NCBI GenBank assembly: GCA_021736135.1
Contig: JAIPGO010000019.1
Location: 1 to 48,563 of the forward strand
DNA: 48,563 bases
Direction: 5' to 3'
From: Candidatus Cloacimonadota bacterium
Lineage (GTDB): Bacteria; Cloacimonadota; Cloacimonadia; Cloacimonadales; TCS61
In this document: in pieces, positions 3,001-41,282 of the stretch
Position numbering within the stretch: position 1 is the stretch's first letter
How the letters are laid out: every line of letters begins with the position of its first letter
Translations under genes and position numbers: made by a program
The notes under the pieces: model-generated
Database searches by the model: none
Seen by the model: only the letters and a program-made list of their open reading frames with translations
What the model was told of the DNA's origin: nothing

Positions 3001-6000
3001 ATGGAGAAACGACGTTGACCATCTATGCCCAGGAAAACAATGCTACTTCCTACGATAACATGCAGATTATAGTGAACTCGGTAAATGATGCTCCCATAAT
3101 CATTGAGCCTTTTGTTAATCTAACTCTGGAAGAGGATTTTGCCGGCTTTACCATCGATCTTGACGAGCATTTTTATGATGTGGAAAATGATCAGATCACA
3201 TATTCCATTGGTTTTGATCAATCAGAAATTTATGCCGTACTGAATGGCAGTATTTTATCAATAAATTCACGGCTGAACTGGTTCGGTTCCACAACTATAT
3301 CCATATCTGCGAATGATAATGTAACCCGGGCAATTACGCAGGCTTCCTTCCTGATCCTGGTTACCCCAGTTAATGACCCGCCGGTTATAAATCTGCCTGA
3401 AAGCTACACTTTTGCTGAAGATGGCAGCCGCACGGTTAATCTGGCAGCTTACGTTAGTGACGTGGATGGCAATCCACTTACAATCAGCATGAATGCCGGT
3501 GTTAATATTACTGCTGTAATCAACGGTTTGAACATCACCTTCCACGCAACACCAGACTGGTTTGGAACTGAAATAGTAACTATCAATGTGAGTGATAACC
3601 AGAGTAGAGCTATCGCCAGCGATGAAGTTCCAGTCATAGTTACTCCCGTTAATGATGCTCCCCGTCTTCTTCTGCCAATTGCAGATATTCAGGTGGTTGA
3701 AGATTTCATACCTATCAATATTGATCTATATTCGCACTTTACAGATGTAGATGATCCGGTACTTGATTTTTCTTATACCTGCAATAATCCAAATGTGAAT
3801 ATAACTTTAGAAAATGGTATTTTCACCCTGTCATCAGCATATAACTGGTCTGGTTCAGCTAATATTTCGATTACAGCTGCTGACGATCAATACAGTGTTA
3901 CAGATAATTTCATTTATCAGGTTACGGCAGCAAATGACGGTCCTGTGATAACGGATTACCAGCCGCTTGACAGCAGCCTGGAAGCCTTGGCAGGGGATAT
4001 CATAGATTTCAGTGTTACTGCATATGATCCAGATTCGGTAATAAACTATAGCTGGCTCAAGAATGGAGAATCGATTGCTTCCGGTTATAACGAGGTAAGT
4101 GTTACTTTCTCCACAGTAGGAGACTATGTTATTACGGCAGTTGTTACAGATCAGGAATTTCAAATAACCCAATCCTGGCAGGTAACTGTGTATCTTAATA
4201 GTGACTGGATCCCTGTTGTTTACACTAATAGCACCATAGCTTATGGGCGGGTGATGATCAATGATAACAATGCCAGTGAATCGGATCTTGTAGGTGCCTT
4301 CATCGCTGATGAATGCCGTGGTACTGGTGATATATTCCTGTATGGTGAAGAATCTTACGTGACTATGAATATTCAGGGAGATGATATCGAAGAAGTGGAA
4401 TTCAGAATTTTCGATGCCAGCACTAATATGATATATGACCAGGTTTATAGTACTTTCACTAATCCTGGTGGCGATATTGGATCACCTTCCGACCCATTGC
4501 CGATTTTTGCTTATGTTAATCAGAATCCTGCCATAGCATTACCTCCGGAAGGCTTCCTGTTTAATGAAGATAGTGAACTGGTAGTAGATTTGGCAGCTTA
4601 TCTATCCGATCCTGATGATGATATGCTATTACTCACCGCTAGTGGTCTTTCAGAAGTCAACGTGGCATTAGATACTTATATTGTTACTTTCACTGCTGCT
4701 GTCAACTGGAACGGAACAGAGCATGTAACTTTTACTGTTGATGACGGAAATGGAGGATCTGCCAGCCAGACAGTTCCAGTAACCGTTATTCCGGTGAATG
4801 ATAATCCTCTTCTGATCTTGCCTATTGCTGATATGACCATGGATGAAGATCAGGCAGCGGTAACGATTATGCTGGATGAGCATTTCTATGATGTTGATTC
4901 TGATTCTCTGGTATTCTCGGCAATTTATCAAAATACGGCTCTGAACCTGAGCATTAACGGTAATGAGTTGAGTTTTGCACCCAAACCAAACTGGAATGGC
5001 ATCACCCAGGTCACGATCCAGGCAAGTGACGGATTTATGAGTGTTGCTGAAGATTTTATACTTACCGTTAATCCGATAAATGACCTGCCTCAACTAGTGG
5101 AAGTATTTTCTGATTATATTCTGGCTGAAGATTTCAACACTTTCGGCATAACTTTAAGCACTCATTTCACAGATATTGACGGAGATGAGCTTTTTTATCA
5201 GATAGACTTTGACCCTGCCAGCATAAATGCCATCCTGGCGGGAGATATTGTCTATATTAATTCCGTTGAAAACTGGAATGGCAGCACAGCAATAAATATT
5301 GCAGCATATGATGACATCTCTAATGAGCCTGCCACTGCCATAATAAATATTACCGTAAATCCGGTTAATGATATACCAGAGCTGGAACTGCCGGAATCAT
5401 TCGAATTTGCTGAAGACACGATCTATGAAGTAGATTTTGCTCCATATATCTTCGATGTGGATATGGATGCCCTTGTGCTTTCAGTAATGCCCACCGTTAA
5501 CATTGATGTAACAATTGACAGTCTGCTGGTCACATTCTCGGCACCTGAAAATTACAATGGCATGGAATTTATTACTTTCCAGGTTAATGACAATATGGGA
5601 AGATTACTGGCAACTGCCCAGACTCAGGTTATAGTCACTGCTGAAAATGATCAGCCTTATGTGGTTGATGATCCTTTGAGCAGCGTGGAGTTTGCTGAAG
5701 ACGGGCAAATCCAGTTCCTGCTGACTTCAATATTCAACGATCCTGATCTTGTTTATGGTGATCAGTTATCTTATGAAGTTGCCGGAGCTAACGAGGTAAT
5801 AGTTACTTTCAGCAATAATAACGTTACTTTAACGGCACAGGAAAACTGGTTTGGACAGCAGTTACTTACTTTTACAGCCTTTGATCAGGATAATGCTTCC
5901 ATATTCCATGAGGTAGTAGTTACCGTAATTCCTGTCAATGATCCGCCTTACCTGGTAATGCCGCTACCGGTGCTGCTACTGGCAGAGGATTTTGACGTCT

Positions 6001-19007: not shown

Positions 19008-20034
19008 CATTTACATCATCTTTTTTTCAGTGACACTTGCCTTGACACTTGTACTCGTACCGGTTAATATCAGGTATTCCCGGAAAACCGGTCTGCTTGA
19101 CCATCCGGGAAACCGCAGTATTCACAAGAACTCCATAGCATTGGCGGGTGGTTTATCATTTGCCATACCAATAATTCTCTTTGAAATCATAGCAGCGGGT
19201 TTTCTGGTTGAAAACCGGGAGAATTTTCTGGAGCTTGCGGCAGGTGGCATCATGATAACCGTACTGGGATTTCTCGATGACAAGAGGAAGTTTACGGCAC
19301 GCTATAAACTGCTGTTTCAGATAGTTATAGCGAGTTTTATGTATTTTAGCGGTTTCCGCATGAACATGCTGACTAATCCCTTTGGCGGGGATATAGACCT
19401 GAGCATTTTTTCCTTTCCTTTCACTATTTTATGGTATGTAACAGTAATCAATGCTTTCAATCTGGTGGATGGGATCGATGGACTTGCAGCCGGAATTGGT
19501 GCAATTGTAGCAGGAGTGCTGCTCACGGTGGGTATAATCAGCGGTTATCCATTCATCATCATATTGTCAATACTGCTTTTTGCTGGCTGCCTTGGATTCC
19601 TGCGTTATAATTTTTACCCGGCAAAGATATTTATGGGTGATACAGGAGCGCTTTTTCTGGGATTTACGATTGCCTCCATCTGTGTGGCAGGAGTGAGTCA
19701 GTTCAAAGGGATTGCGGCAATGACCCTTTTGATTCCCATAGCCGTGCTGGGTTTACCGCTGGTGGAAACCACCAGTACAGTATTTCGTCGTATGAAGGGC
19801 AACCGTCATCTTTTTCTGGCAGATAAGGAGCATATTCATCATAAGCTTCTGGACCTGGGATTTTCGCAAAAAGTAATAGCACTGGTACTTTATTTCGTCA
19901 CTTTTTTATTCGGAATGATAGCCATAGGCTTTTCATTTTCGAGTAAAAAACTGTTTCTGCTGATCCTGCTGCTGCTGGTGTTTATTCTGTTTATTCTTAT
20001 TATTTTATTGTACAGTAAGGAATTAAAGAAATGA
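18997..20034 (+). CDS. WecA/MraY-family undecaprenyl-phosphate sugar-1-phosphate transferase
   Basis: 345-residue polytopic membrane enzyme of the polyprenyl-phosphate N-acetylhexosamine-1-phosphate transferase family. It should start glycan synthesis by moving a sugar-1-phosphate from a UDP-sugar to undecaprenyl phosphate. Diagnostic motifs are present: DHPGNRSIH near 35-43, FLDDKRKF with DDK at 94-96, NLVDGIDGL at 155-163, MGDTGA at 213-218 and the HIHH motif at 279-282, which favours the WecA type over MraY. About ten or eleven hydrophobic helices can be seen. I prefer the ATG at 18997 because GAGAAG lies just upstream and the overlap with the previous gene is smaller; the alternative at 18979 adds six residues. 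The stop overlaps the next start in an ATGA. Confidence 0.9.
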   Translation: MSISIYIIFFSVTLALTLVLVPVNIRYSRKTGLLDHPGNRSIHKNSIALAGGLSFAIPIILFEIIAAGFLVENRENFLELAAGGIMITVLGFLDDKRKFTARYKLLFQIVIASFMYFSGFRMNMLTNPFGGDIDLSIFSFPFTILWYVTVINAFNLVDGIDGLAAGIGAIVAGVLLTVGIISGYPFIIILSILLFAGCLGFLRYNFYPAKIFMGDTGALFLGFTIASICVAGVSQFKGIAAMTLLIPIAVLGLPLVETTSTVFRRMKGNRHLFLADKEHIHHKLLDLGFSQKVIALVLYFVTFLFGMIAIGFSFSSKKLFLLILLLLVFILFILIILLYSKELKK

Positions 20035-22499
20035 AAAAGAATCTTATACTCTTATTCCTCGCACTGAGTTTTATACTGAGTGCTGAGACGATCCTGCGTG
20101 ACTGGAAATCTTATACAAATACTACTCATATATCGGATGTAAAAGCTGTAGGTGGTGAATTGATCCTTGCTACCTGGGGTGGTTTGCTTTATTATAATAC
20201 ATCAGAGAATAGTTTTCGGGGACCTTTATTGAAATCCGGCGGTCTGGTGGAAGACGAAGTGAGTTCTTTGGCGATACTGGCAGACAATACGCTTCTGGTG
20301 GGAACAAAAGGCGGAGGCATCAGCCGTTTGCAGCAGGGTGAATTTATAATGCCTCTAAATAACAGCAGCGGTTTTGACCTCGATTATGTTTATCAGTTAG
20401 AGGCCTTCAGCAATAATTTTGTGGCTGTAACTAATTACGGGATCAGCATATTTACCCAATTACCGGGCTGGCCTCTGCCGGCAACGGCTCATTATCACAG
20501 CAATAACGGATTAAGTTCCAATAATATAACCTCCGTGGCGATAAAAAACGACAGCATTATTATCTGCGGTTCTGAAGCCGGTATTGATTATGCTGTTCTG
20601 AATGACGTGAACAACCTGGACTGGCAGCATCTGAACAGCAGTAACTCACCTTTATCAGATAATAATATTACGGATATATTCTGCCGAGGTAACACAACAG
20701 CTATTTCCACGCATTCCGGGATAAATGTAACCGGAAGTTTAAGTGATTTTGGAGACTGGGAAATTTACAGTTCCGGAACGTCGTATTATCCTGTTTTTAT
20801 TTCAGAAGACGGTTCTATCTGGAGCAGTGAAGGCTACTGGGATGAAAGTGCACTCACTATTCAGGAAAACAGCGAAACCTGCCTGATCAAGATTACGGAA
20901 GGTGTAGCAGAAACCTGGACTAATTCTGAACTGGGATTGACGAAGGGAATGGTTACCAGTATTACCCAGATCAATTATGAAATTGTCTTTTCATTCTGGG
21001 GGGAAGGCATTATTATTCATGATGGCAGCGGCTGGAGTGAACCGATTACTCAGAATTGTCTTAATGGCAATTCCACCGATGAATTATTCATAGATAGTAA
21101 TTATCAATTATGGACAGTTCATGGGACCAAAGGTCAACCGGAACCACGTCGCGGAAATCGTGGTGTTTCCTGCTGGGATGGTGAGAACTGGAGTGTTTAC
21201 GATTCAAGTTGTTCAGGGCTTTACGGTGACAATGTGAGTAACATTCTGGAAGTGGAAAATAATGTGTTCTGGTTAACAACATATTCCAATGCTGATTCAA
21301 ATAAATCGGGAATAAATATATATGATCTCAGTGGAAATGAACCTGCCTGGAGTTTTGTACATTATGGCGTTATAACAGGTCTTCCATCCTGGCAGGTAAC
21401 AGATATAATGAAAGCCAATGACGGTAATATCTGGATATGTGGATATAATGCTGCTATTTTTGGAGGTAAACCCGGTATTGGGGCGTTTAATCTTGAACTG
21501 GAACTGCAATACGGTTTTTATGCTCCCGACCTTATTTATCTAAATCCCGACGATATATATAAAGCAAATTCCTGGATGGTTTATCAGGGTGATAATTATG
21601 CCATGGTTGGTGGTAAACTGACGGGATTTCAGGTCTGGAACAGTTCTGAAATACCAGAGACGGAAGATTCGGCAAACTGGCTGCGACCAGAGAACAGTGA
21701 TTTTGAAAACGGATATATCAGCGATGCGGTGGAACGGCACGAACTTTTTGAAGACCAGCTATGGATAGCTTCTTCCCAGGCGCTGATGATGTATGACGGG
21801 GATACGTGGTATCGTTTTGGCAAGGAAAGCACCAAACGTCAGTATCTTGATTTTTCATTTGCTCATCCGGAATGGGAACCCAAAAAACTGGATATAGGAG
21901 AAAATGATTCTCCCGACTGGTGGTATTTCGTAGGACAGGAGCATTTGTATGGTGGTGTTCCCACTTATCCCACGGCTTTGCTTCTGGATCCCTTTAACGT
22001 ACTCTGGATCGGAACTGCCAATAATGGGATCTGTCGCTATGATATTGATAATAATATCTTTATGACCTGGAATACGGAAAACAGCCCTCTCTTTTCCAAT
22101 AGGATCAATGATCTGGCATATGACGAACTTACCGGCATCATGTATATTGCCACTCCTAAGGGTATGAATTCGGTAAAAATCGGTATCAGTGAAGAAAAAA
22201 ACCAGGTTAGGGATTTCAATCAGGTAGTAGCATTTCCAAATCCCTTTTATCCCGCCAAAAATGATGTTGTCAGAATAGAAAACATAAATGAGGAGACAAT
22301 GCCTGCTGGCGTGAGTACCTGTTCCATTTATGATCTGGAGGGCTTACTGGTAAAAGAGCTGGCGGTAAATAATTTTCAGCAGTTCGAATGGGATGGCCTA
22401 AATTCTTCTAGTAAAACCTGTTCCTCCGGTATTTATTTTTATCTGGTCACTCTGGAAAACGGGAAATCTGCCACGGGCAAGATTATTCTAATCAGGTAG
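20031..22499 (+). CDS. Exported beta-propeller protein with type IX-like sorting domain
   Basis: 822 residues. A signal peptide (KKNLILLFLALSFILS) is followed by many repeats with the pattern of two-component-regulator propeller blades (ISDVKAVGGELILATWGG, SSNNITSVAI, NRINDLAYDELTGIMYIAT), then a C-terminal FlgD-Ig-like sorting domain beginning VVAFPNPFYPAKND and ending GKIILIR. Known biology: propeller blades of this kind bind ligands or partners outside the cytoplasm, and the tail marks secretion through a type IX-like route. Its place inside the polysaccharide operon, coupled by ATGA to the initiating transferase, suggests the protein is displayed with, or anchored to, the glycan made here; that is inference. 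No kinase or enzyme part is attached. Confidence 0.85.
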   Translation: MKKNLILLFLALSFILSAETILRDWKSYTNTTHISDVKAVGGELILATWGGLLYYNTSENSFRGPLLKSGGLVEDEVSSLAILADNTLLVGTKGGGISRLQQGEFIMPLNNSSGFDLDYVYQLEAFSNNFVAVTNYGISIFTQLPGWPLPATAHYHSNNGLSSNNITSVAIKNDSIIICGSEAGIDYAVLNDVNNLDWQHLNSSNSPLSDNNITDIFCRGNTTAISTHSGINVTGSLSDFGDWEIYSSGTSYYPVFISEDGSIWSSEGYWDESALTIQENSETCLIKITEGVAETWTNSELGLTKGMVTSITQINYEIVFSFWGEGIIIHDGSGWSEPITQNCLNGNSTDELFIDSNYQLWTVHGTKGQPEPRRGNRGVSCWDGENWSVYDSSCSGLYGDNVSNILEVENNVFWLTTYSNADSNKSGINIYDLSGNEPAWSFVHYGVITGLPSWQVTDIMKANDGNIWICGYNAAIFGGKPGIGAFNLELELQYGFYAPDLIYLNPDDIYKANSWMVYQGDNYAMVGGKLTGFQVWNSSEIPETEDSANWLRPENSDFENGYISDAVERHELFEDQLWIASSQALMMYDGDTWYRFGKESTKRQYLDFSFAHPEWEPKKLDIGENDSPDWWYFVGQEHLYGGVPTYPTALLLDPFNVLWIGTANNGICRYDIDNNIFMTWNTENSPLFSNRINDLAYDELTGIMYIATPKGMNSVKIGISEEKNQVRDFNQVVAFPNPFYPAKNDVVRIENINEETMPAGVSTCSIYDLEGLLVKELAVNNFQQFEWDGLNSSSKTCSSGIYFYLVTLENGKSATGKIILIR

Positions 22500-26793: not shown

Positions 26794-27846
26794 ATGAAAT
26801 TTTCACTGGCAGATAAGCAGACTGAGATCAAATTTGTCTCTTTTAGGGAACTGACTGTCTGGTGTCAGAAGGGCTGTTTCTATATCATTGACGCTAATAT
26901 AGATCGGGAGTATCCTGAGATCTGTGGTAACCTTAACCATAAATACCTGTTCGCCGCCCTTGAAGAGAATAAGACCCTGGTTAAGGCAGAAGATATCATC
27001 TCCTGCCTGCTGCTAAATGGCGCTAATAGAGAATCTCATCTAATTGCTATTGGTGGAGGCATCACCTGTGACCTTGCGGGTTGGGTAGCAGCTAATTATA
27101 TGCGGGGCTGTCAGCTTTCGTTCATTCCCACTTCTTTAATAGCAATGATTGATGCCGCACTCGGCGGAAAAACCGCACTTAATTTTCAGGGCAGTAAAAA
27201 TCTGATCGGTTCTTTTTATCCAGCTTCTCAGGTTTTAATAGCCACAGATTTTATAAAAAGTCTTTCTTCCAAAATGCTGCTGGCAGGAAAAGCAGAGCTG
27301 GTGAAAACCGCGCTTTTACAGAAAGGTGAATTGCTGCCGCTTCTTAGACAGGATAACTGGATAGAACCTGAAACTTTGCTGGAAATCATCATGAACGCGG
27401 TTAATTTTAAAATGACGATCTGCACCCTTGATCCTTATGATAAAAAGCAGCGTCGCCTTCTGAATCTGGGACATACTTTTGCCCACGTGATCGAATCTGC
27501 CTTGAATTACCAGGTTGAACACGGCAGAGCCGTTGCCATCGGAATCGCCGCTGCCGCAAATCTAAGCTTCATTAGGAATATGATCGATATAAAAAGGTAC
27601 GACAACATTCTGCAATTATTACAGGATTCTTTCCCACAAAATTATTTTTTTGTTGACAGCCGGGAATTTGCAGTGATAGAAAAAAAGGGACAGGAATTCT
27701 TCCTGCATGATAAGAAAGCCGGAAAAACCAGCAGGGTGGTTCTTTTCAACGGCATAAATGATGTGATAATAACCGAAGCGGTTTCCTGGCAGGAAATACT
27801 TGCTTCTATTAATACTTATGAAAATAAGGGAGGTTTTAATGCCTGA
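26794..27846 (+). CDS. aroB: 3-dehydroquinate synthase family protein
   Basis: 350 residues, normal for the family. It keeps the NAD-binding AIGGGITCDLAGW (GGG at 87-89, D93), IPTSLIAMIDAALGGKTALN, the metal-site residues E168 (in KAELVK), H228 (in LLNLGHTF) and H244 (in VEHGRAVAIG), and KNLIGSFY for phosphate binding. The reaction is conversion of DAHP to 3-dehydroquinate in the shikimate pathway. Placement within a polysaccharide operon leaves open a role in a sugar-derived cyclitol; the motifs alone favour AroB proper. I use the ATG at 26794, directly after the radical SAM stop; a longer frame from 26722 would run through that gene. No strong ribosome binding site is seen, implying coupling. 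Confidence 0.82.
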   Translation: MKFSLADKQTEIKFVSFRELTVWCQKGCFYIIDANIDREYPEICGNLNHKYLFAALEENKTLVKAEDIISCLLLNGANRESHLIAIGGGITCDLAGWVAANYMRGCQLSFIPTSLIAMIDAALGGKTALNFQGSKNLIGSFYPASQVLIATDFIKSLSSKMLLAGKAELVKTALLQKGELLPLLRQDNWIEPETLLEIIMNAVNFKMTICTLDPYDKKQRRLLNLGHTFAHVIESALNYQVEHGRAVAIGIAAAANLSFIRNMIDIKRYDNILQLLQDSFPQNYFFVDSREFAVIEKKGQEFFLHDKKAGKTSRVVLFNGINDVIITEAVSWQEILASINTYENKGGFNA

Positions 27847-29110
27847 TCTAGCTTTATTGAAAGACCTTGATGTTAAAGGAAAGATCGCCCTGGTAAGAGT
27901 TGACCATAATGTGGTGAAAAAAGGTAAAATAATTGATCCTTACCGCATTGATGCCTCTCTGCCTACTCTGCGCTATCTGCTCCAGGAAGGAGCACGTATT
28001 ATTCTTATGAGCCACGTGGGCAGACCTCGTGATAAAAAAACCGGCGAAATCAAAATCTCAGATGACACTTCCATCGAGCCAGTGGTTGCTTACCTGCGGG
28101 AAGCCGGCTTTAATGCTGTCGCTATGACTTTGCCTGATTATGATGCCAATGGTATTTCTAAACTTAAAGGCGGAAAAGAAATAAAGGAACTGAAAGCCGG
28201 GAAATATGATATTGTTTATCTTCCTAACACGCGTTGGTTTACCGGCGAAGAGGGTGATGAAAAGGAAAAGAAAGCCCTGGGAAAACAATTAGCTGCTTTA
28301 GCCGATGTCTTTGTTAATGATGCTTTTGGCTCATGGCAGCCGCATGCTTCCACAATTGAACCAGCCCGTCACCTTCCATCATGTGCCGGGTTTCTGATGG
28401 AAAAGGAAATAAGTCACCTTAACGACGTACTGAAACCTGCTCGCCCCTTTGTAGCAGTAGTTGCCGGTTCCAAGTTTGATACTAAGATCGAGCCGCTTTA
28501 TGCACTACTTGAAAAGGCGGACTTCCTCGTCCTGGGCGGAGTTATTTATAATGCCTATCTTTGTGCACGCTACGGTTTTATGATCAAGGGCGTTTCTGAG
28601 GAAGACCTGGAAGCTGCTGCCGAGTTTGTGGAGTTTAGTAAACGCTATCGCGGTAAAATCGTGGAACTGCAATATATTGTGGAATCAGATTCTCTGGACT
28701 CAAAAAAGAAAGGCAGCTACCGCACCCACGATATCAAAGCTCTGGGAAAAGGTGATTTCCTGAATTATGTCCTCGATATTGATCCGCGTTCTTTTTTAGA
28801 GAAAAAAACCAAAAAAACTTTCGCTAAAGCCAACACTATTTTTGTTAATGCCGTGATGGGACTCACACCCCTGTTTACAGAAGGCACTATCGCTCTTGAT
28901 GAGACCATTCATGCCAATAACAGGGCCAGGAAACTTTTCGGCGGCGGTGATACATTGCAGGAACTCAATACTCTGCTTCCCGAAATTTATCAGCAGGCGC
29001 TTATTAACCAGCGCTACTATTTCTTTACCGGGGGCGGTACTATCCTCAAGGTGATCTCGGAAAAATCACCCTACGGACTGGAACCTGTTAAAGTATTACT
29101 GAAACCGTAA
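27839..29110 (+). CDS. pgk: Divergent phosphoglycerate kinase
   Basis: 423 residues, slightly longer than the usual 390-415. Family motifs are clear: RVDHN (20-24, usually RVDFN), SHVGRP (58-63), GSKFDTK (210-216), FGGGDT (367-372) and TGGGT (397-401). Two conserved places are changed. NDAFGTAHRAHAS reads NDAFGSWQPHAS (160-171), one residue shorter and lacking the substrate arginine, and the NGPMGVFE nucleotide loop reads NAVMGLTP (337-344). Phosphoglycerate kinase normally moves phosphate between 1,3-bisphosphoglycerate and ADP; whether this one still does so is uncertain. The ATG at 27839 has GGGAGG 4 nt upstream and overlaps aroB by 8 bp. Last gene of the operon; no clear terminator follows. 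Confidence 0.78.
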   Translation: MPDLALLKDLDVKGKIALVRVDHNVVKKGKIIDPYRIDASLPTLRYLLQEGARIILMSHVGRPRDKKTGEIKISDDTSIEPVVAYLREAGFNAVAMTLPDYDANGISKLKGGKEIKELKAGKYDIVYLPNTRWFTGEEGDEKEKKALGKQLAALADVFVNDAFGSWQPHASTIEPARHLPSCAGFLMEKEISHLNDVLKPARPFVAVVAGSKFDTKIEPLYALLEKADFLVLGGVIYNAYLCARYGFMIKGVSEEDLEAAAEFVEFSKRYRGKIVELQYIVESDSLDSKKKGSYRTHDIKALGKGDFLNYVLDIDPRSFLEKKTKKTFAKANTIFVNAVMGLTPLFTEGTIALDETIHANNRARKLFGGGDTLQELNTLLPEIYQQALINQRYYFFTGGGTILKVISEKSPYGLEPVKVLLKP

Positions 29111-29216: not shown

Positions 29217-29256
29217 TCATTAATATTATTGTATGATCGTATTCAGGGAGTATTGA

Positions 29257-32100
29257 ATGAACCGTAAAATTTCATTGATTGTAGTATTTCTGGTAATAAT
29301 AGTCATTGTACTTTTTTCAGATACTCTTAGCTTGAAAAAGAAAAAAATATCTCAAGAAAAAGAGAAACCTGGTGCATTTCTTTCCCCCCATACATGTTTA
29401 GTTATAGATAACCTGGAAAATCTTCTGGTTATAAAAGCCTATTTTTCTAAATCACTACCCAGCGAATTTGCTGATACCCAGCGCTTTATGCAGTATCTTT
29501 TTGAAGAATATCAAGCCTATTCCGGAGGCAATCTGTGTTACGAATTTGTGGATCCCATTGATGATGACGCCCTGAAGGAAGAAGCCCAGAAAGCACAGAT
29601 AAAGCCCATGACCATGCCCGTAAATGTGCAGGATCAGCTTGTTTTACGCGAAGTATATATGGGGCTGGCTTTCCTTTATCAGGATAAAATGGAATCAATC
29701 CCCTTTGTGCAGAATACTCAGGGTCTGGAATATGATATTACTAAAACTATCAAGAAGATATCAGCTCAGTCAATGAAGAAACTTGCTTTCTTCAGCACCG
29801 ATAATGAAGAGGGGCCTATTGGCAGAGGACAGACCTCAAGTCCTTATCAAACGGTAAGACAGGTTGTTTCCGAAAGTTATGAATTAAATGATATCGACCT
29901 CACCGAACCTTTAACGATTGACACCGATGCTCTGATGATAACCAGTATTGCAGATACTCTTACCGAAACTCAGCTTTATAACCTTGACCAGTATATTATG
30001 CAGGGCGGTAAGGTTATCCTTTTCCAGGATAGAGTAACGGCAGATATTCAAAATGCAGCAGCAGAAGTTAATAACACAAATCTATTTGATCTGCTGGAAC
30101 ATTACGGTATTGTTGCCAAAAAGAACCTGGTTGCCGATGCCGAATGCGGACAGATCCAGATCATGCGACGACAGGAGGGGGGGGGAATGGTCAATACTCC
30201 CGTTAAATATCCCTATTTACCAATTATTACCGTACGTAACGAAAATAATCCACTTGTGAAAAACCTGGACACGATTCAGATGGTCTTCGTTTCTGAAATT
30301 GATACTTCCTTTGTTAAAAACACCTTTGAACCGCTATTTTATTCTTCGGCAAATTCCCGCCAGACTTACGGTCCCCAGTTTGATATCGACTACAATAATT
30401 ATATGAAGAAAGACCTGCGGCAGGAACTTAATGAAGGCAGAAAAATACTAGGCGGTATCTATTCCGGTACTTTTATGAGTTATTTTGCTAATAATCCATA
30501 TTATCCTGATGCCCTGCTAACAACATCTGAAGCATGCATAATATTTGTACCCAGCAGAAACTTTATCAGAGAAGCCACTGTTACCAGTATGGAAGGAAAT
30601 AAAGATTTTGCAATTAATGCCGTAAATTATCTAGCTGGCGATGAAGATTTAATTAAACTTCGATCAAAAGATGCTGCAGATGAATATAATTTTAGTGTTA
30701 TTAATACGCAATTAGAAAATAATTTTTCTGATACACTTAGCTTGAATAAGAAAAATATCTCTCAAAAAAAAGAGAAATCTGATACTTTTCTCTCCCCATA
30801 TACATGTTTAGTTTTAGATAATCTGGATAATCTCCTGGAAATAAAGGCTTATTTTTCTAATTCACTACCCGGTGAATTATTTGATACCGAGTGCTTTACG
30901 TTGGATATTCTTGAAGAATATCAAGCTTATTCCGAGGGTAATCTACGGTATGAATTTGTGTGCACAATTGATGAAGAAGCCCTGAAGGAAGAAGCCCATA
31001 AAGCACAGATCGACCCCATAACCCTGCGAATAAACAAACAGGATCAGCTTCTCATACGCGATATATATATGGGATTGGCTTTCTTTTATCAGGATAAAGT
31101 GGAATCAATCCCCATTGTGCAGAATACTCGGGGTCTGGAATATGATATTACCAATACTATCAAGAAAATCTCAGCCCAGTCTATGAAGAAACTTGCTTTC
31201 TTCAGTATCTATAATGAAGAGGTGTCTTTAGGCAACGGGCAGACCTCAATTCCTTATCAGACGGTAAGACAGATTGTTTCGGAAAGTTATGAATTAAGGG
31301 ATATTGACCTCACAGAACCTTTGACTATTGACACCGACGCCCTGATGATTACCAGTATAACCGATAATTTGACCGAAACCCAGCTTTATAACCTTGACCA
31401 GTATATAATGCAGGGCGGGAAAGTTATCCTTTTTCAGGATAGAGTTATCGCAGATATTCAGAATGCCGCAGCTGAAGTGAATGAAACAAATCTCTTTGAT
31501 CTGCTGGAACATTATGGCATAGTTGCTAAAAAGAACCTGGTTGCTGATGCCGAATGTGGACAAATTCAGGTCACCCGTCAGCAGGGATTTTACCGGTTTA
31601 ATACTCCCGTTAAATATCCATATTTCCCGGTGATTACAGAACGTAACGAAAAGAATCCTCTGGTGAAAAACCTGGATATGATACAGATGGTTTTCGTATC
31701 TGAAATTGATACTTCCTATGTAAAAAACACCTTTGAACCGCTATTTTATTCTTCGGCACATTCCGGTCAGGCATCCGGTCCCACTTTTAACATAAACTAT
31801 AATGAATATATGGAGAAAGACCTGCAGCAGGAGCTTAAAGAAGGCAAAAAAATACTTTCCGGCATGTATTATGGGATTTTTACCAGTTATTTTGCCAATG
31901 ATCCTGCTTATCCTGATGCCATATCCGAAACTTCCGATGCGTGTATCATATTCGTACCCAGCGGCAGTTTCATTCGAGAAGGTGCCGGTGCCGGAATTGC
32001 TGGTAATATGGATTTTGCAGTTAATGCCGTAGATTATCTTGTCGGTAATATAGATTTTATATATCTCCGGTCAAAAAATGCTGCGGATTATAATTTCTAA
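29257..32100 (+). CDS. Tandemly duplicated GldG-like protein
   Basis: 947 residues made of two copies of a GldG-type module with a 470-residue (1410-bp) period. An N-terminal membrane helix (ISLIVVFLVIIVIVLF) leads into copy 1; copy 2 begins at SDTLSLNKKNISQ, repeating the SDTLSLKKKKISQ just after the helix. Both copies hold the module landmarks: KAYFSKSLP/KAYFSNSLP, QNTQGLEYDIT/QNTRGLEYDIT, ITSI..LTETQLYNLDQYI, GGKVILFQDRV and VFVSEIDTS. Copies are strongly similar to gldG at 34295. Unlike gldG, the C-terminal membrane helix is missing from both copies, so this would be a periplasmic protein held by one N-terminal anchor. GldG-type proteins are membrane partners of an ABC system (GldA/GldF) known from gliding bacteria. 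GGGAG is 7 nt before the start. A run of nine G lies in copy 1 (30177-30185). Confidence 0.85.
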   Translation: MNRKISLIVVFLVIIVIVLFSDTLSLKKKKISQEKEKPGAFLSPHTCLVIDNLENLLVIKAYFSKSLPSEFADTQRFMQYLFEEYQAYSGGNLCYEFVDPIDDDALKEEAQKAQIKPMTMPVNVQDQLVLREVYMGLAFLYQDKMESIPFVQNTQGLEYDITKTIKKISAQSMKKLAFFSTDNEEGPIGRGQTSSPYQTVRQVVSESYELNDIDLTEPLTIDTDALMITSIADTLTETQLYNLDQYIMQGGKVILFQDRVTADIQNAAAEVNNTNLFDLLEHYGIVAKKNLVADAECGQIQIMRRQEGGGMVNTPVKYPYLPIITVRNENNPLVKNLDTIQMVFVSEIDTSFVKNTFEPLFYSSANSRQTYGPQFDIDYNNYMKKDLRQELNEGRKILGGIYSGTFMSYFANNPYYPDALLTTSEACIIFVPSRNFIREATVTSMEGNKDFAINAVNYLAGDEDLIKLRSKDAADEYNFSVINTQLENNFSDTLSLNKKNISQKKEKSDTFLSPYTCLVLDNLDNLLEIKAYFSNSLPGELFDTECFTLDILEEYQAYSEGNLRYEFVCTIDEEALKEEAHKAQIDPITLRINKQDQLLIRDIYMGLAFFYQDKVESIPIVQNTRGLEYDITNTIKKISAQSMKKLAFFSIYNEEVSLGNGQTSIPYQTVRQIVSESYELRDIDLTEPLTIDTDALMITSITDNLTETQLYNLDQYIMQGGKVILFQDRVIADIQNAAAEVNETNLFDLLEHYGIVAKKNLVADAECGQIQVTRQQGFYRFNTPVKYPYFPVITERNEKNPLVKNLDMIQMVFVSEIDTSYVKNTFEPLFYSSAHSGQASGPTFNINYNEYMEKDLQQELKEGKKILSGMYYGIFTSYFANDPAYPDAISETSDACIIFVPSGSFIREGAGAGIAGNMDFAVNAVDYLVGNIDFIYLRSKNAADYNF
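29317..32097 (+). repeat. Two tandem 1.4-kb coding copies of a gldG-like unit
   Basis: Unit 1 spans about 29317-30726 and unit 2 about 30727-32097; matching words such as GATACTCTTAG/GATACACTTAG at 29320 and 30730 fix a 1410-bp period. A third copy is gldG itself (about 34440-35700). Long stretches are identical at DNA level between unit 1 and gldG in the first half, and between unit 2 and gldG in the second half. Confidence 0.85.
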
Positions 32101-32636
32101 AATAATGACTTATAACCAGGTGAAGTAACAAAAATACTCCAGATGAGACCGTTGCTAAAAGCTGAGCAAAGAACCTTTTACCGGTGGCAGAACTATCCCC
32201 AAAGCGAGCCTGGAAAATCAACCTGCAAATTTGGACTTGTACAGATGCTGCTGAAGAAATAATCTTTTTATCTCTTGTTTTTTGTCAGGCTAAGTACTAT
32301 TACCCAATAATGTAAATATCTAATACTTAAAAACTGATATGCTTTTCGTATGCCTTTATTATTGTATTCCAGCAACATGAACACCGATGATTTTATAAAA
32401 TGTTATCAATGTTTACGTTGCTGGGGTATATTCGGGGAATTTTATTGGATAGGAGTATTAAAAAAGTGTAACCAATCTTAATAGTATCGTTTTATCTGTG
32501 AATATAGTGAAAAAAGAGAATCGGGGGGAATGTAAATGAGAGCGGAAGTTTTCCTGCTTGACAAGCAAGAGTCGTTAAAAAAACAGTTTAACAATTGTAA
32601 TATAAATTTGCATATATTGAATAAGGAGTTGAATTC
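32101..32636. other. Intergenic stretch between the duplicated gene and gldA
   Basis: 536 bp with no convincing gene. A 39-codon frame at 32143-32262 (ending FGLVQMLLKK) has no ribosome binding site and no recognised relative; it could be a fragment. A hairpin lies at 32369-32424. A TTGACA at 32558-32563 has no -10 at normal spacing. The gldA ribosome binding site AAGGAG stands 8 nt before its ATG. Confidence 0.55.
32369..32424. repeat. Long imperfect hairpin, related to the one at 14464-14500
   Basis: Outer arms CCAGCAAC (32369-32376) and GTTGCTGG (32417-32424) pair perfectly; inside, TGAACACCGATGA pairs with TTATCAATGTTTA with two mismatches and several G-T pairs. About 22 base pairs in all. 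It shares ACACCGATGA (32381-32390) and ATGTTATC (32400-32407) with the hairpin at 14464. No T-run follows, so it is not a plain terminator. Confidence 0.6.
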
Positions 32637-33572
32637 ATGATCAGATTGGAAAATCTTGTAAAGGATTATGGAACAGTTAGAGCAGTTGACCATATTGATT
32701 TCAACATCAATGACGGGGAAATTCTTGGTTTTCTGGGTCCCAATGGTGCGGGAAAATCCACTACCCTGAAAATGATCACCTGCTATCTGTCACCTACAGA
32801 AGGGAACATTCATGTTGGCGAAGCTAACGTGATAGATGATTCTCTGGAAATCAGGAAAAAGATCGGGTATCTTCCCGAACAAAATCCGCTTTATGCTGAG
32901 ATGATTGTTTATGATTATCTGAAGTTTGTGGCGGAAGTTCGCCGTATACCGGATTTTAAAAATCGTCTAAAAGAGATCATTGATCTCTGCGGACTGCATG
33001 GGGTGGTGAATAAGACGGTTCAGACGTTATCAAAGGGTTATAAGCAGAGAGTTGGGCTTGCTCAGGCAATTCTGCATGACCCGGAAATTCTGATTCTGGA
33101 TGAGCCGACCAGCGGTCTTGATCCAAACCAGATCGTAGAGATCAGAGAACTGATTAAAAAACTGGGCAAGGAAAAGACCTTGATCATTTCGAGCCATATT
33201 CTCCAGGAAGTGCAGGCAGTCTGTGATCGTATTGTGATCATCAATAAAGGCAAGATCGTTGCTGACGGTTCTGCTGACCAGTTGAAATCAGGTTTTAATA
33301 AGAAGATGAGCGTCACTATCCAGGCAGATGCAGATGAAGAAGCTCTAAAACTTATGGTAACAAATCTGGGTAATATGAACCTGACCAAAGTGAAAATGAT
33401 CTCAGCAACTCTGACTGAAGCTGTGGTGGAATTTGACCGTCAACTCGACCGGCGTCCTGAAATCTTCAATTATATCAAGAATAACGGTTTTACACTTTAT
33501 GAGCTGCACCGGGAAGACATCAGTCTGGAAGACGTCTTCCGCAATCTGACCATTGAAGGAGGAAAAAAATGA
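32637..33572 (+). CDS. gldA: ABC transporter ATP-binding protein, GldA-type
   Basis: 311 residues. Walker A GPNGAGKST (34-42), Q-loop near EQNP (81-84), signature LSKGYKQR (131-138), Walker B ILILDEPTSGLDP (D155/E156) and the H-loop in SSHILQEV are all intact. About 85 C-terminal residues beyond the ATPase core fit the extra domain of this export subfamily. It should energise the permease encoded next (4-bp ATGA overlap) together with the GldG-type protein. Family members are required for gliding in Flavobacterium; here the cargo is unknown. AAGGAG lies 8 nt before the start. Confidence 0.88.
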   Translation: MIRLENLVKDYGTVRAVDHIDFNINDGEILGFLGPNGAGKSTTLKMITCYLSPTEGNIHVGEANVIDDSLEIRKKIGYLPEQNPLYAEMIVYDYLKFVAEVRRIPDFKNRLKEIIDLCGLHGVVNKTVQTLSKGYKQRVGLAQAILHDPEILILDEPTSGLDPNQIVEIRELIKKLGKEKTLIISSHILQEVQAVCDRIVIINKGKIVADGSADQLKSGFNKKMSVTIQADADEEALKLMVTNLGNMNLTKVKMISATLTEAVVEFDRQLDRRPEIFNYIKNNGFTLYELHREDISLEDVFRNLTIEGGKK

Positions 33573-34282
33573 ACTTTGCCCAGTTAATCTCCAAAAAGGA
33601 AACTAATGCCTATTTCGATTCTCCTTCGGCATATATTTTTCTGGTGGTTTTCCTGCTTTTCAGCGGCTGGTTCTTTGCCAGTCCCCTATTTCTTGCCAAT
33701 AGTGCCGATATGCGCACTCTTTTCAACATGATACCCATTCTTTTCCTTTTCTTTGTGCCCGTGATCACTATGGGGCTTCTAGCTCGGGAAAGAAGTTCCG
33801 GTACAATCGAGCTTCTGGCAACTTTTCCATTAACAGAAGTGCAGATCATCATGGGTAAATTCTGGGCAGCCTTAAAGCTGATATCGATTGGATTGCTCTT
33901 CACGCTGCTGCATTTGCTGACGATCATCATTCTGGGAACCAATATTGATTATGGAGCCATATTCTGTGGTTACATTGGATTGTTGATGGTTGGCGCGGTA
34001 TATGCCTCCATCGGAATATTTGCTTCCAGTCTTTCTAATAATCAGATCGTAGCCTTCATCATCAGCTTTGCTATCATATTCGTGCTCTATATGCTGCAAT
34101 ATTCCTTATTTTTCATTCCGGCAGCATTCGCCGGTTTCTTCCAGTATATCTCAATAGGTTATCACTATTCCAATATGGCTCGTGGTGTGATCGATACCCG
34201 TAATCTCATATATTTCCTAAGTCTCATCACAATCTTTCTCCGGCTGGCAATTGCCGTGCTGGAAATCAGAAAATGGAAATAG
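33569..34282 (+). CDS. gldF: ABC-2-type permease, GldF-type
   Basis: 237 residues with six hydrophobic helices. The N-terminus FAQLISKKETNAYFDSPSAYI and GLLARERSSGTIELLATFPL are the hallmark segments of the GldF/NosY-like ABC-2 permease family (coupling region with the conserved E-R-x-x-G-T-x-E). Its ATG overlaps the gldA stop, and the gldG start follows 12 bp later, so the three are one transport unit in the inner membrane. Confidence 0.88.
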   Translation: MNFAQLISKKETNAYFDSPSAYIFLVVFLLFSGWFFASPLFLANSADMRTLFNMIPILFLFFVPVITMGLLARERSSGTIELLATFPLTEVQIIMGKFWAALKLISIGLLFTLLHLLTIIILGTNIDYGAIFCGYIGLLMVGAVYASIGIFASSLSNNQIVAFIISFAIIFVLYMLQYSLFFIPAAFAGFFQYISIGYHYSNMARGVIDTRNLIYFLSLITIFLRLAIAVLEIRKWK

Positions 34283-34294
34283 GAGAATAATATT

Positions 34295-35866
34295 ATGAAT
34301 ACAAAAAATATATGGACCAGTTTTATTATCCTGTTGGGGATCATTATTTTAGTAACTCTTCTTTCGCAGAGTTTCTTCTCGAGACTTGATTTCTCGCGGG
34401 GAAAAGTGTATTCGCTATCCAAAGCATCAAAGCAGTCTGTGAAGAATCTGGATGACAGATTGATCGTGAAAGCATATTTCTCCAAATCACTACCCGGTGA
34501 ATATGCAGATGTTCGTCGTTTTACACAGGATATGCTGGACGAATATCAAGCCTATTCAGGCGGTAATCTGCGTTTTGAATTTGTGGATCCCGTTGACGAA
34601 GAAGCCCTGAAGGAAGAGGCCCAGAAAGCACAGATCCAGCCCATGACCATGCGCGTAAATGAACAGGATCAGCTCGTGCTGCGCGAAGTATATATGGGAT
34701 TGGCTTTCCTTTATCAGGATAAAGTGGAATCGATTCCCTTTGTGCAGAATACTCAGGGTCTGGAATATGATATTACTAAAACGATCAAGAAAATCTCAGC
34801 CCAGTCAATGAAGAAACTCGCTTTCTTCAGCACCGATAATGAAGAAGTGCCTATTGGCAGAGGGCAGACCTCAAGTCCTTATCAGACGGTAAGACAGATC
34901 GTATCGGAAAGTTATGAGTTAAGTGATATTGACCTTAGCGAACCTCTAACTATTGACACTGATGTCCTGATGATAACAAGCATTGCTGATACTCTTACCG
35001 AAACTCAGCTTTATAATCTTGACCAGTATATAATGCAGGGCGGGAAAGTAGTTCTTTTTCAGGATAGAGTGACGGCAGATATACAAAATGCTGCTGCCGA
35101 AGTAAATGGAACCAATCTTTTTGATCTGCTGGAACATTACGGTATTGTAGCCAAAAAGAACCTGGTAGCAGATGCCGAATGCGGGCAGATCCAGATCACA
35201 CGTCAGCAGGGTTTTTTCAGGGTTAATACTCCGGTTAAATATCCTTATTTCCCGGTGATTACAGAACGTAACGAAAAGAATCCTCTGGTGAAGAATCTGG
35301 ATATGATACAGATGGTTTTCGTATCTGAGATCGATACTTCCTTTGTTAAGAACACCTTTGAACCGCTATTCTATTCCTCGGCAAATTCCGGTCAGACATC
35401 CGGTCCCCGTTTTGATATCAGCTATAATAAATACATGCAGAAAGACCTGCGGCAGGAACTTAAAGAAGGTAGAAAAATACTTGCCGGTATCTATTCCGGT
35501 ACTTTCACGAGTTATTTTACCGATAATCCGGCTTATCCTGATTTGATACCGGAAACTTCCGAAGCGCGTGTTATATTCGTACCCAGTGGTAATTTCATCA
35601 GAGAAGGCGCTGGTGCCGGCGTGGAAGGAAATATGGATTTTGCACTTAATTCCGTTGATTACCTGGCAGGCGAGGCTTCGTTGATCCTGATCCGTTCACG
35701 TGAAACTGAATATCGTCCTCTCAAGGCTGTTGAATCTAATTCCATGCGTCAGCTCATAAAATGGGCAAATATCCTGCTGCCTTCACTTCTGCTCATTATC
35801 TACGGTATCCTGCGCTGGAGAAAAGAAAGTAAAAGGAAAAGCCATTTAGGAGATCTCTATGAATAA
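34295..35866 (+). CDS. gldG: GldG-type ABC transport auxiliary protein
   Basis: 523 residues. An N-terminal helix (SFIILLGIIILVTLLSQSFF), a long periplasmic GldG domain with YSLSKASKQSVKNLDD, KAYFSKSLPGEY and GLEYDITKTIKKI, and a C-terminal helix (ILLPSLLLIIYGIL) followed by a basic tail give the normal topology for the family. The GldG domain is the parent-type of the duplicated protein at 29257. It has AGGAG 9 nt before the ATG. The stop overlaps the DUF4340 gene by 8 bp. Confidence 0.87.
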   Translation: MNTKNIWTSFIILLGIIILVTLLSQSFFSRLDFSRGKVYSLSKASKQSVKNLDDRLIVKAYFSKSLPGEYADVRRFTQDMLDEYQAYSGGNLRFEFVDPVDEEALKEEAQKAQIQPMTMRVNEQDQLVLREVYMGLAFLYQDKVESIPFVQNTQGLEYDITKTIKKISAQSMKKLAFFSTDNEEVPIGRGQTSSPYQTVRQIVSESYELSDIDLSEPLTIDTDVLMITSIADTLTETQLYNLDQYIMQGGKVVLFQDRVTADIQNAAAEVNGTNLFDLLEHYGIVAKKNLVADAECGQIQITRQQGFFRVNTPVKYPYFPVITERNEKNPLVKNLDMIQMVFVSEIDTSFVKNTFEPLFYSSANSGQTSGPRFDISYNKYMQKDLRQELKEGRKILAGIYSGTFTSYFTDNPAYPDLIPETSEARVIFVPSGNFIREGAGAGVEGNMDFALNSVDYLAGEASLILIRSRETEYRPLKAVESNSMRQLIKWANILLPSLLLIIYGILRWRKESKRKSHLGDLYE

Positions 35867-36776
35867 GAAAAACCGCATATACCTCATTATATTGATCGTA
35901 TTGGCAGTTATCTTCGTTCTCACGAAGCTGGACACGAAGAAAGAAAAAAGATTCAATTTCTTTGCTGCTGATTCCAACAGCGTTGCCCGTATTGAGATTA
36001 CTCTGGAAGCCGATACCCTGTATCTGGCAAAAGAAGGCAGCGACTGGAAAATCGTTTATCCCGTAAAATGGGATATGCAGGTGGGTAAAATGGATAAGAT
36101 ATTCGATACCGTTTTAACTGCCGAAACTTCCACTCTTCCGATTTCTGAAAATGAAGCATCACTGGTGAAATATTCACTTACGGATAGTCTGGCTACTCAC
36201 CTGAAAACCTTTGATGCTAAAGGTAACGTACTCGATGATGTGCTTCTGGGTAAAAGCAGCAGTTACAGCAATACTCCCGTACGCAAGATTGGCTCGAATC
36301 AGGTTTACCGCCTGGAATCCAATATTGCTTATATTCTGAAACCTGTCCTTGGTTCCTGGAGAAAACGTGAGATCATAGAAATAGATCCGGAGCAGATAAC
36401 TAAAATCATGGTTGTTTCTGACGATAATAACTATGCTCTCGAAATGGCTGACTCATTATGGGTATATTCCGATGAAAAGGAGAGCTTCAACGTTGATAAT
36501 GACAATTCCACCCTTACCGGAATAATCAACTCATTCAAGCGGTTTGCAGCTTCCGATTTCGTGGATGGCAAGTATGAAGAATATAAATCAGCCCTGGAAA
36601 TGCCGGTGGTGGAAGTCGGTATTGAAATGTGGTCTGGCGATAACTTCTATTTCCGCTATATCCCTTATGAAGAAAAGAAATATCTTCTACAGTTTAATAA
36701 TGACACCAACACTCTCTACGTGCAGTATGAATCAAACATGAACAAGTTCCAGAAACAAGCTGTAGATTTTCAGTAA
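35859..36776 (+). CDS. DUF4340-family membrane-anchored protein
   Basis: 305 residues. One N-terminal helix (IYLIILIVLAVIFVLTKL) anchors a periplasmic domain with the DUF4340 pattern: ARIEITLEADTLYLAKEGSDWKI, the VDKIF-like segment MDKIFDTVL, LLGKSSSYSNTPVRK and WRKREIIEI. Members of this family usually follow gldG-type genes and are thought to be part of the same transport assembly; no activity is known. AGGAG lies 6 nt before the ATG, inside the end of gldG. The transcript ends 30 bp downstream at a strong terminator. Confidence 0.82.
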   Translation: MNKKNRIYLIILIVLAVIFVLTKLDTKKEKRFNFFAADSNSVARIEITLEADTLYLAKEGSDWKIVYPVKWDMQVGKMDKIFDTVLTAETSTLPISENEASLVKYSLTDSLATHLKTFDAKGNVLDDVLLGKSSSYSNTPVRKIGSNQVYRLESNIAYILKPVLGSWRKREIIEIDPEQITKIMVVSDDNNYALEMADSLWVYSDEKESFNVDNDNSTLTGIINSFKRFAASDFVDGKYEEYKSALEMPVVEVGIEMWSGDNFYFRYIPYEEKKYLLQFNNDTNTLYVQYESNMNKFQKQAVDFQ

Positions 36777-36805: not shown

Positions 36806-36838
36806 GGAGAACAGCCCCTCAGGCTGTTCTCCCTTTTT
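36806..36838 (+). terminator. Rho-independent terminator of the Gld-type operon
   Basis: An 11-bp perfect stem, GGAGAACAGCC with its complement GGCTGTTCTCC, a 5-nt loop and a C-T5 tail. It starts 29 bp after the DUF4340 stop. Confidence 0.92.
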
Positions 36839-36893
36839 GGAGTACATTAACAGAAGTTAATGCACCGAGACGCAGTCGAGTGCTAGTATTTAA

Positions 36894-36956
36894 GACGTGA
36901 GTCGTGAGACGTGAGACGTGAGACGTGAGTCGTGAGACGTGAGTCGTGAGTCGAGA
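36894..36956. repeat. Heptamer array (G[A/T]CGTGA)x8 plus GTCGAGA
   Basis: Eight head-to-tail copies of GACGTGA or GTCGTGA run from 36894 to 36949 and a variant GTCGAGA closes the array, directly followed by TCCGGGAAG of the 74-bp repeat. Looser heptamers of the same type border the other copies of that repeat at 48150-48260 and 46985-47018. It lies between a terminator and the convergent flippase gene. Confidence 0.88.
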
Positions 36957-37084: not shown

Positions 37085-38548
37085 TCAATCCTTCCGAATC
37101 ATAGCCTTAAATTTTTCCAGTTCTCCCCGCTTCAGCAGCAGAAGGTAAAGTCCCACGCAAAACAGCAAAGCAAAAAAAACTTTAAAAGAAATAGATATCA
37201 AAGTGAAAGGCACAAATCTGATCAGTGCCATGGCAATTCCGAAAAGCGGCAAAGTGATCAGCAGATATCCGATCTTATAATTGGGCTTAAATTCTTTTTG
37301 CGCATAAATATAATTTAAGATCACAATAAACAGATAGGCAAAAATGGATGCTGCGCCAGCGCCATATAGTCCGAAGGCAGGAATCAGCAGGAAATTTAAT
37401 CCAATATTGATCAAAGCCCCCAGAATTACTGCCACGGCAATATTACCGGCACGTTTCTGAGCATAAAAGATCACGTTGATCAGATTGAAAATACCCTGCA
37501 GATAGGTTGAGATCACCCCAATGAAAGTTAAACGCGCTGCCACTGCATACTGAGCATCTATCAGCAGTGCGAATATTTCCGGTGAAAAAAGGATAATGAA
37601 AAAGCCAAGAATTCCACCGCCCCAAAGGTAATAACTGAACATCGTGCGGTAAATTTCCGGTGCTTTCTCTTTATCGGCAATGCGCATGGCATATGGTAGA
37701 AAAACCGTGCTGATGAGCGTTATCAGAAAGAGCATGATGGAACCGATCTTATAACTTATGGAATAGATACCCACATTATAAAGTGACCGGTAAATGGTGC
37801 TTGCCGACAGGTGCGTCAACATCAGACGGTCAGCAGCACGCAGGATTATCATTGCTATTGTGCCTGGTATCATTATTAATCCGAAACGCAGGATCGGCAG
37901 CATGATTTTTGCGGAAAATATGCCAAACCGCGCGTCCGGCAGCTTTCTATGGATACTGCCGATGATGAATATTCCCAGCAGACTGCCGATTACCGTGGAA
38001 ATGAACAGAGCTTTAAAGATGTATATTATGGAGAACATCCCGTTCATACCCCCGAATATGAGCAGTATAAAGAAAATTATATTCTGCGTAAATCCCACAA
38101 TCACGTAACTGCCGGAACGCTCCATAACGTTCAGCAGACTCAGACAGATAGAAGTTATGCTATTAAAAAAAAGCGTGATCCCGACCCAAAAAAATAGTCT
38201 GCTGTATTGAATATCCCGCACTATCCACAGCGAAAGTTTTTCTGAGAAAAAAGCAATCAGGGTCGTGAATATAATCCCTGAGATCAGGATAGTGATAAAC
38301 ACCGAAGAAATCAGTTTTGCCTGATAAGCAGCAGTTTTCTGCTCATTGAAATAGGAATACATCGCCTGCTGGATGCCTAGAATATAGATCAACGCTGCAA
38401 AAGTGAAGAACAGCATGATATTGGTATAAACCGCATATTCATCCGGAGGCAGGAATCTGGAGAACATCGGCAGCAGCAGCAGCAGCAGTAGTTTATTGGC
38501 AATATTACCAGCGGTGTAATGGATAACTTTTTTTAAATAACTGTGCAT
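37085..38548 (-). CDS. Polysaccharide flippase, Wzx/MATE-like (oligosaccharide exporter family)
   Basis: 487 residues with about fourteen hydrophobic helices across its length. The opening KVIHYTAGNIANKLLLLLLLPMFSRFLPPDEYAVYTNI is the Polysacc_synt signature start (broken here by no odd residue), and the family's central LRFGLIMIPGTIAMIILRAADR and late GLYGAGAASIFAYL are present. It should flip undecaprenyl-linked glycan units to the periplasm, the step missing from the operon at 14837-29110, though it lies 8 kb away on the other strand. A run of CAG/CTG codons makes the L7 stretch. The start lies 9 bp after the AsmA-like gene with AAAGG before it, so both genes are cotranscribed. Confidence 0.88.
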   Translation of the reverse strand: MHSYLKKVIHYTAGNIANKLLLLLLLPMFSRFLPPDEYAVYTNIMLFFTFAALIYILGIQQAMYSYFNEQKTAAYQAKLISSVFITILISGIIFTTLIAFFSEKLSLWIVRDIQYSRLFFWVGITLFFNSITSICLSLLNVMERSGSYVIVGFTQNIIFFILLIFGGMNGMFSIIYIFKALFISTVIGSLLGIFIIGSIHRKLPDARFGIFSAKIMLPILRFGLIMIPGTIAMIILRAADRLMLTHLSASTIYRSLYNVGIYSISYKIGSIMLFLITLISTVFLPYAMRIADKEKAPEIYRTMFSYYLWGGGILGFFIILFSPEIFALLIDAQYAVAARLTFIGVISTYLQGIFNLINVIFYAQKRAGNIAVAVILGALINIGLNFLLIPAFGLYGAGAASIFAYLFIVILNYIYAQKEFKPNYKIGYLLITLPLFGIAMALIRFVPFTLISISFKVFFALLFCVGLYLLLLKRGELEKFKAMIRKD

Positions 38549-41206: not shown

Positions 41207-41282
41207 GGCGAGATAGCTCAGTTGGTAGAGCAGAGGCCTGAAAAGCCTTGTGTCCCCAGTTCAAGTCTGGGTCTTGCCACCA
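41207..41282 (+). tRNA. tRNA-Phe (anticodon GAA), CCA encoded
   Basis: 76 nt. The acceptor arms GGCGAGA and TCTTGCC pair (one G-T), the D arm is AGCTCAGTTGGTAGAGC, the anticodon stem GAGGC/GCCTT encloses the loop CTGAAAA with GAA, the variable loop is GTGTC, and the T arm is CCCAG-TTCAAGT-CTGGG. Discriminator A and CCA are in the DNA. It stands alone, divergent from the AsmA-like gene. Confidence 0.97.

Follow-up and report, generated by a model that had tools for sequence, protein, structure and literature searches.

The locus upstream of the gldAFG cluster in this genome raises the question of what purpose a protein with two GldG modules might serve when GldG, the accessory subunit of the gliding-associated GldAFG complex (TIGR03521), is encoded downstream. 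We know of no identified binding partner for the periplasmic part of GldG, nor of an account of how GldAFG aids gliding and type IX secretion. A first-pass annotation of the window, that is, the whole stretch of 48,563 nucleotides analysed here, had proposed that the double periplasmic module acts as a competitor or linker for the ABC complex. The source organism is a Cloacimonadota MAG, available as a draft assembly in 148 contigs, and a search of the literature found nothing specific to Cloacimonadota on either GldG or type IX secretion. In Flavobacterium johnsoniae gliding requires each of GldA, GldF and GldG, membrane localisation of GldA needs both GldF and GldG, and type IX components depend on GldA and GldF for their stability (PMC9127263).

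Organisation of the locus

The double-GldG gene is an intact ORF within which direct repeats are spaced by 1407/1410 nt (470 codons) at approximately 82–85% DNA identity, and the repeat recurs in gldG (Table 1). Pfam domains confirm the two tandem modules that had been described with a period of 470 residues in a 947-residue protein; the local gldG yielded one DUF7088 and one ABC_transp_aux. A genome scan returned exactly three ABC_transp_aux domains, two in the double-GldG ORF and one in gldG, so that the claim of three modules in one locus holds. Hydropathy likewise bore out a single N-terminal helix (residues 1–28) and the absence of the C-terminal helix of gldG, the local GldG having helices at residues 2–31 and 487–506. 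The double protein scored 309.1 bits against TIGR03521, under the NCBIfam equivalog cut-off of 389.85, and its match to Pfam IFT52_GIFT was weak, slightly under the cut-off of that model.

Conserved membrane-proximal residues are altered in the modules at 4–5 of 7 positions on the N-terminal side and at all four on the C-terminal side. Both modules have lost or scrambled the N-terminal membrane-proximal motif (RLDFSRGKVYSLSKASK in GldG), and neither the C-terminal helix nor the tail is present. Contact with the permease would most likely be made by these elements.

Table 1. Coordinates of the double-GldG gene, its parts and its neighbours within the window.
Feature	Position	Strand	Evidence
pgk (phosphoglycerate kinase), upstream flank	27800..29110	+	Syntenic
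Putative ribosome-binding site AGGGAG	29245..29250	+	6 nt before ATG; direct reading of sequence, consensus match only
Double-GldG gene	29257..32100	+	Intact ORF, ATG start, 947 aa, 2 DUF7088 and 2 ABC_transp_aux, omega <1 on both modules
Sole predicted membrane helix of double protein (residues 1–28)	29257..29340	+	Hydropathy
Module A (residues 1–489)	29257..30723	+	75.1% aa identity to GldG, 74.8% to module B
Module A DUF7088 / thioredoxin-like domain	29380..29673	+	Pfam residues 42–139; omega 0.32, not distinguishable from 1
Module A ABC_transp_aux / GIFT domain	29776..30621	+	Domain searches; omega 0.17, omega=1 rejected
Module B (residues 490–947)	30724..32097	+	75.5% aa identity to GldG; AlphaFold2 model, element order as in GldG
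Module B DUF7088 / thioredoxin-like domain	30790..31083	+	Second DUF7088 stretch, placed by register with module A; omega 0.44, not distinguishable from 1
Module B ABC_transp_aux / GIFT domain	31225..32025	+	Domain search; omega 0.15, omega=1 rejected
Probable decayed copy of pgk 3' end (29024–29103)	32177..32255	+	Local alignment score 57 vs best 48 in 1000 dinucleotide shuffles; Gumbel P ~4e-6 (mononucleotide shuffles)
gldA-like ABC ATPase	32637..33572	+	TIGR03522, 362 bits, below cut-off 402.6
gldF-like ABC permease	33569..34282	+	TIGR03518, 194.6 bits, below cut-off 288.5
gldG, parent gene, two membrane helices	34295..35866	+	TIGR03521, 243.5 bits, below cut-off 389.85; hydropathy
DUF4340 gene, customary last cluster gene in relatives	35859..36776	+	Pfam and synteny

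The cluster downstream is complete, as had been reported, and its order, gldA-gldF-gldG-DUF4340, matches that of relatives. The double gene lies outside the gldAFG reading order, between pgk and gldA; in the sister (nearest) genus there is a single gldG and gldA directly follows pgk, and both flanks of the double gene are syntenic with that genus. Because the genome has one close GldF, the double protein appears to be without an evident permease of its own. No remnants of an extra gldA or gldF were found around the double gene. The intergenic region 32098–32640 was rejected as a mobile element, being single copy in the genome, and an RNA element in the locus was also rejected, the sole Rfam match in the window being a tRNA at 41207.

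Beyond the cluster, a terminator-like hairpin (36806–36832) follows the DUF4340 gene and precedes approximately eight tandem copies of AGACGTG (36893–36950). Further downstream is a flippase gene on the minus strand (37085–38548), the sister-genus homologue of which (35% identity) sits in a plus-strand cluster before an aroB-like gene. At the opposite end of the window a 2731-aa ORF (9–8204) opens with a 339-base unit repeated in tandem approximately four times, the copies being 85% alike (1–1444).

Age, origin and distribution

Modules A and B and GldG share approximately 75% protein identity and 78–80% DNA identity pairwise. Core dS was 0.60 between A and B, 0.69 between A and GldG and 0.64 between B and GldG, while dS to the nearest genus was saturated; the triplication is therefore young and local. 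At GldG sites 229, 273 and 431, conserved in 48 relatives, the local gldG and both modules carry the identical change. The extra modules therefore derive from the local gldG lineage, and a horizontal origin was rejected because changes of the local gldG itself at conserved sites are common to both. Modules A and B also have an altered linker (FSDTLSL...) in common, and the best-fitting tree placed them as sisters, narrowly on the core alone and by a wide margin with the linker included. Recent gene conversion was rejected, as no converted tracts were present in the site patterns.

Relatives of the double protein are mainly Candidatus Cloacimonadota MAGs, among which no further genome of the same genus was found. 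A search of related genomes for similar double-GldG proteins, as the first-pass annotation had advised, recovered two GldG domains in one frame in one of 107 genomes of the order, namely this one, the others mostly having a single gldG of approximately 500–600 codons. Among the matches listed (to approximately E 4e-6) for 296 genomes of the phylum to which a Roseivirga locus belongs, no ORF with two GldG matches was present; that sample commonly had single GldG domains as well as some ORFs of approximately 800 aa. The latter resemble the double protein in having a GldG domain within an enlarged protein, but carry one such domain in each listed ORF and are likely to be GldF-GldG fusions. At one position in the sample (G109:C1:2875106-2878994) two nearby ORFs of 759 and 776 aa each have a GldG domain, and are perhaps duplicated GldF-GldG fusions. 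The layout, described earlier as unfamiliar, has so far remained so, none like it having been found in relatives or in the literature searched. These comparisons demonstrate a lineage-specific origin for the double gene and describe it as a young paralogue of the adjacent gldG.

The location of the double gene between pgk and gldA, followed by a probable decayed copy, in the same orientation, of the last 80 bases of pgk, suggests as the simplest history a tandem duplication of a segment, truncating one gldG, and then an internal duplication. The first event would have extended from inside pgk to inside gldG (a pgk(3')-gldA-gldF-gldG segment), with a break point that cut off the C-terminal helix of one gldG. 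The extra gldA and gldF would then have been lost and the extra pgk end would have decayed, after which the truncated gldG would have undergone an internal in-frame duplication, so that a single N-terminal anchor came to carry two modules.

Selection on the double gene

After the A/B split, codon models gave an omega of 0.17 for module A and 0.24 for module B against a background of 0.034, and omega=1 was rejected for each (2dlnL of 40.1 and 29.4, respectively). The A and B branches together had an omega of 0.21 versus 0.04 for gldG, a constraint approximately fivefold weaker than that on gldG. The 947 codons contain no stops, against a neutral expectation of approximately 10 per module at the fitted length, and none of 500 neutral simulations of a module ended with fewer than 3 stops. 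The rejection of omega=1 and the absence of stops therefore indicate that the double gene has been under selection, weaker than that on gldG. As regards a pseudogene, neither stops nor frameshifts were found and omega=1 was rejected for whole modules.

The distribution of this constraint along the modules differs from that in ordinary gldG. Between the gldG genes of two relatives, nonsynonymous to synonymous counts were 8:41 in the thioredoxin-like half and 92:132 in the GIFT part; between A and B they were 36:18 and 79:80, a reversed pattern. The difference in log odds ratio between these counts was approximately 2.0 with a standard error of approximately 0.53 (z ~3.8, by hand arithmetic). 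Codon models returned an omega of 0.15–0.17 for the GIFT domains of the modules, with omega=1 rejected, and 0.32–0.44 for the thioredoxin-like domain (background 0.03), which was not distinguishable from 1 in a comparison of only 83 codons with little power. By these substitution patterns constraint has shifted within the modules: the thioredoxin-like half, which in normal GldG is conserved most strongly, is close to neutral here, and the GIFT domains are still constrained.

Fold and comparison with known systems

No solved structure related to GldG was detectable by sequence. GldG modelled with AlphaFold2 (mean pLDDT 83) gave its best matches to IFT52 GIFT domains, followed by ThuA-like proteins and, weakly, thioredoxins. 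A model built on module B alone (mean pLDDT 79) has its elements in the order seen in GldG. With IFT52 structures as the top matches of the GldG model and GldG 75% identical to the modules, a GIFT fold is indicated. IFT52 and Wbp1 share the fold of the second half of each module, but are eukaryotic, have other partners and are without a thioredoxin-like half.

The double protein resembles GldG of TIGR03521 in the DUF7088 and ABC_transp_aux domains of both modules and in its 75% identity to the local gldG product. It differs in having two modules per chain, one anchor and a scrambled N-terminal linker, in being without the C-terminal helix or tail, and in its gene lying outside the gldAFG reading order. 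Proteins of archaeal arCOG01314 / DUF4350, a GldG-like family, also present an extracellular GldG-like domain that is singly anchored and outside GldF coupling, and are predicted to belong to a complex for secretion or remodelling; they differ in having a single domain, a C-terminal anchor and other gene neighbours (PMC5898192).

With at least 150 type IX sorting tails and a homologue of SprA in the genome, a type IX link of the double protein is plausible. A GldM model gave no match in the present genome, nor in any control. The upstream glycosyltransferase cluster, whose end is syntenic in the sister genus, includes at 20031–22499 a gene for an 822-aa protein bearing a type IX sorting domain of the CHU_C type.

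Possible functions of the double protein

The reading we favour, with a probability of approximately one half, is that the double gene, a young gldG paralogue, encodes a periplasmic accessory with tandem GIFT domains and a single anchor that no longer couples to the transporter. The product is probably a binding protein of accessory function, home-grown in this lineage, in which the outer binding domains were kept and the ties to the membrane machine lost. Two GIFT domains on one tether would bind whatever the GIFT domain of GldG binds, an envelope protein or glycan; sugar binding has been proposed for GIFT domains (proposal cited in PMC7226087). It would serve the GldAFG / type IX secretion envelope system as an accessory subunit for capture or scaffolding, and the coupling to ATPase and permease that GldG has would no longer be present. 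That GldG and the double protein have a partner in common is a guess. Points against the favoured reading are a constraint weaker than that on gldG, the almost free thioredoxin-like half, the lack of any remnant of an extra gldA or gldF and the occurrence in one genome. A related and more tentative proposal is that the protein serves the type IX secretion envelope as a bivalent receptor or scaffold in the periplasm, independently of the ABC permease, selection having moved from the coupling half to the GIFT half.

A slowly decaying duplicate, a still-open leftover that is weakly selected and has no important function of its own, is a somewhat doubtful alternative that nevertheless carries some weight; with the decoy considered next, it is the chief rival. 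It would account for an omega approximately five times that of gldG, the near-neutral thioredoxin-like half, the loss of conserved residues, a G+C content below that of gldG and the occurrence of the gene in one genome only. It does not sit well with the rejection of omega=1 for both modules, the absence of the stops expected of neutral modules or the continued constraint on the GIFT domains, and the adjacent pgk fragment did decay.

The competitor of the first-pass annotation, extended to a decoy, would bind GldF or the ligand of GldG and so restrain GldAFG activity. The high identity of the GIFT part to GldG, the common locus and the single anchor without a C-terminal helix agree with this proposal, which we regard as unlikely. 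Competition for GldF is disfavoured, since the membrane-nearest segments, the likeliest GldF contacts, are those that were lost; a decoy for a shared ligand and a helper are not separable from sequence. Action on the ABC complex, whether as linker or as competitor, would be conjecture: the likely permease-contact parts are lost or scrambled, and the thioredoxin-like domain is nearly unconstrained with the GIFT domains under selection. The loss of the likely permease-contacting parts together with GIFT selection favours an accessory sharing the periplasmic partner of GldG over a GldF competitor.

ABC-2 complexes usually comprise two permease and two ATPase subunits, and tandem modules could on that basis form a single-chain stand-in for a GldG dimer, taking up both GldG positions on the GldAF complex. 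This is distinctly improbable, as a complete gldG, the more constrained copy, is retained beside gldF and both modules are without the membrane-proximal parts. An assembly or binning artefact, which the draft genome in 148 contigs might have produced and which would see the duplication collapse to one copy, is very unlikely indeed and was rejected, the copies differing at approximately 20% of nucleotides, at scattered and in many cases synonymous sites, between distinct flanks that are both syntenic.

If the double protein is an accessory that was uncoupled from the transporter, a natural variant whose GIFT domains have stayed under selection while the membrane-coupling parts were shed may offer a ready-made bait for the partner of GldG. 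It also suggests that the GIFT domain may have a separable job, apart from the transporter.
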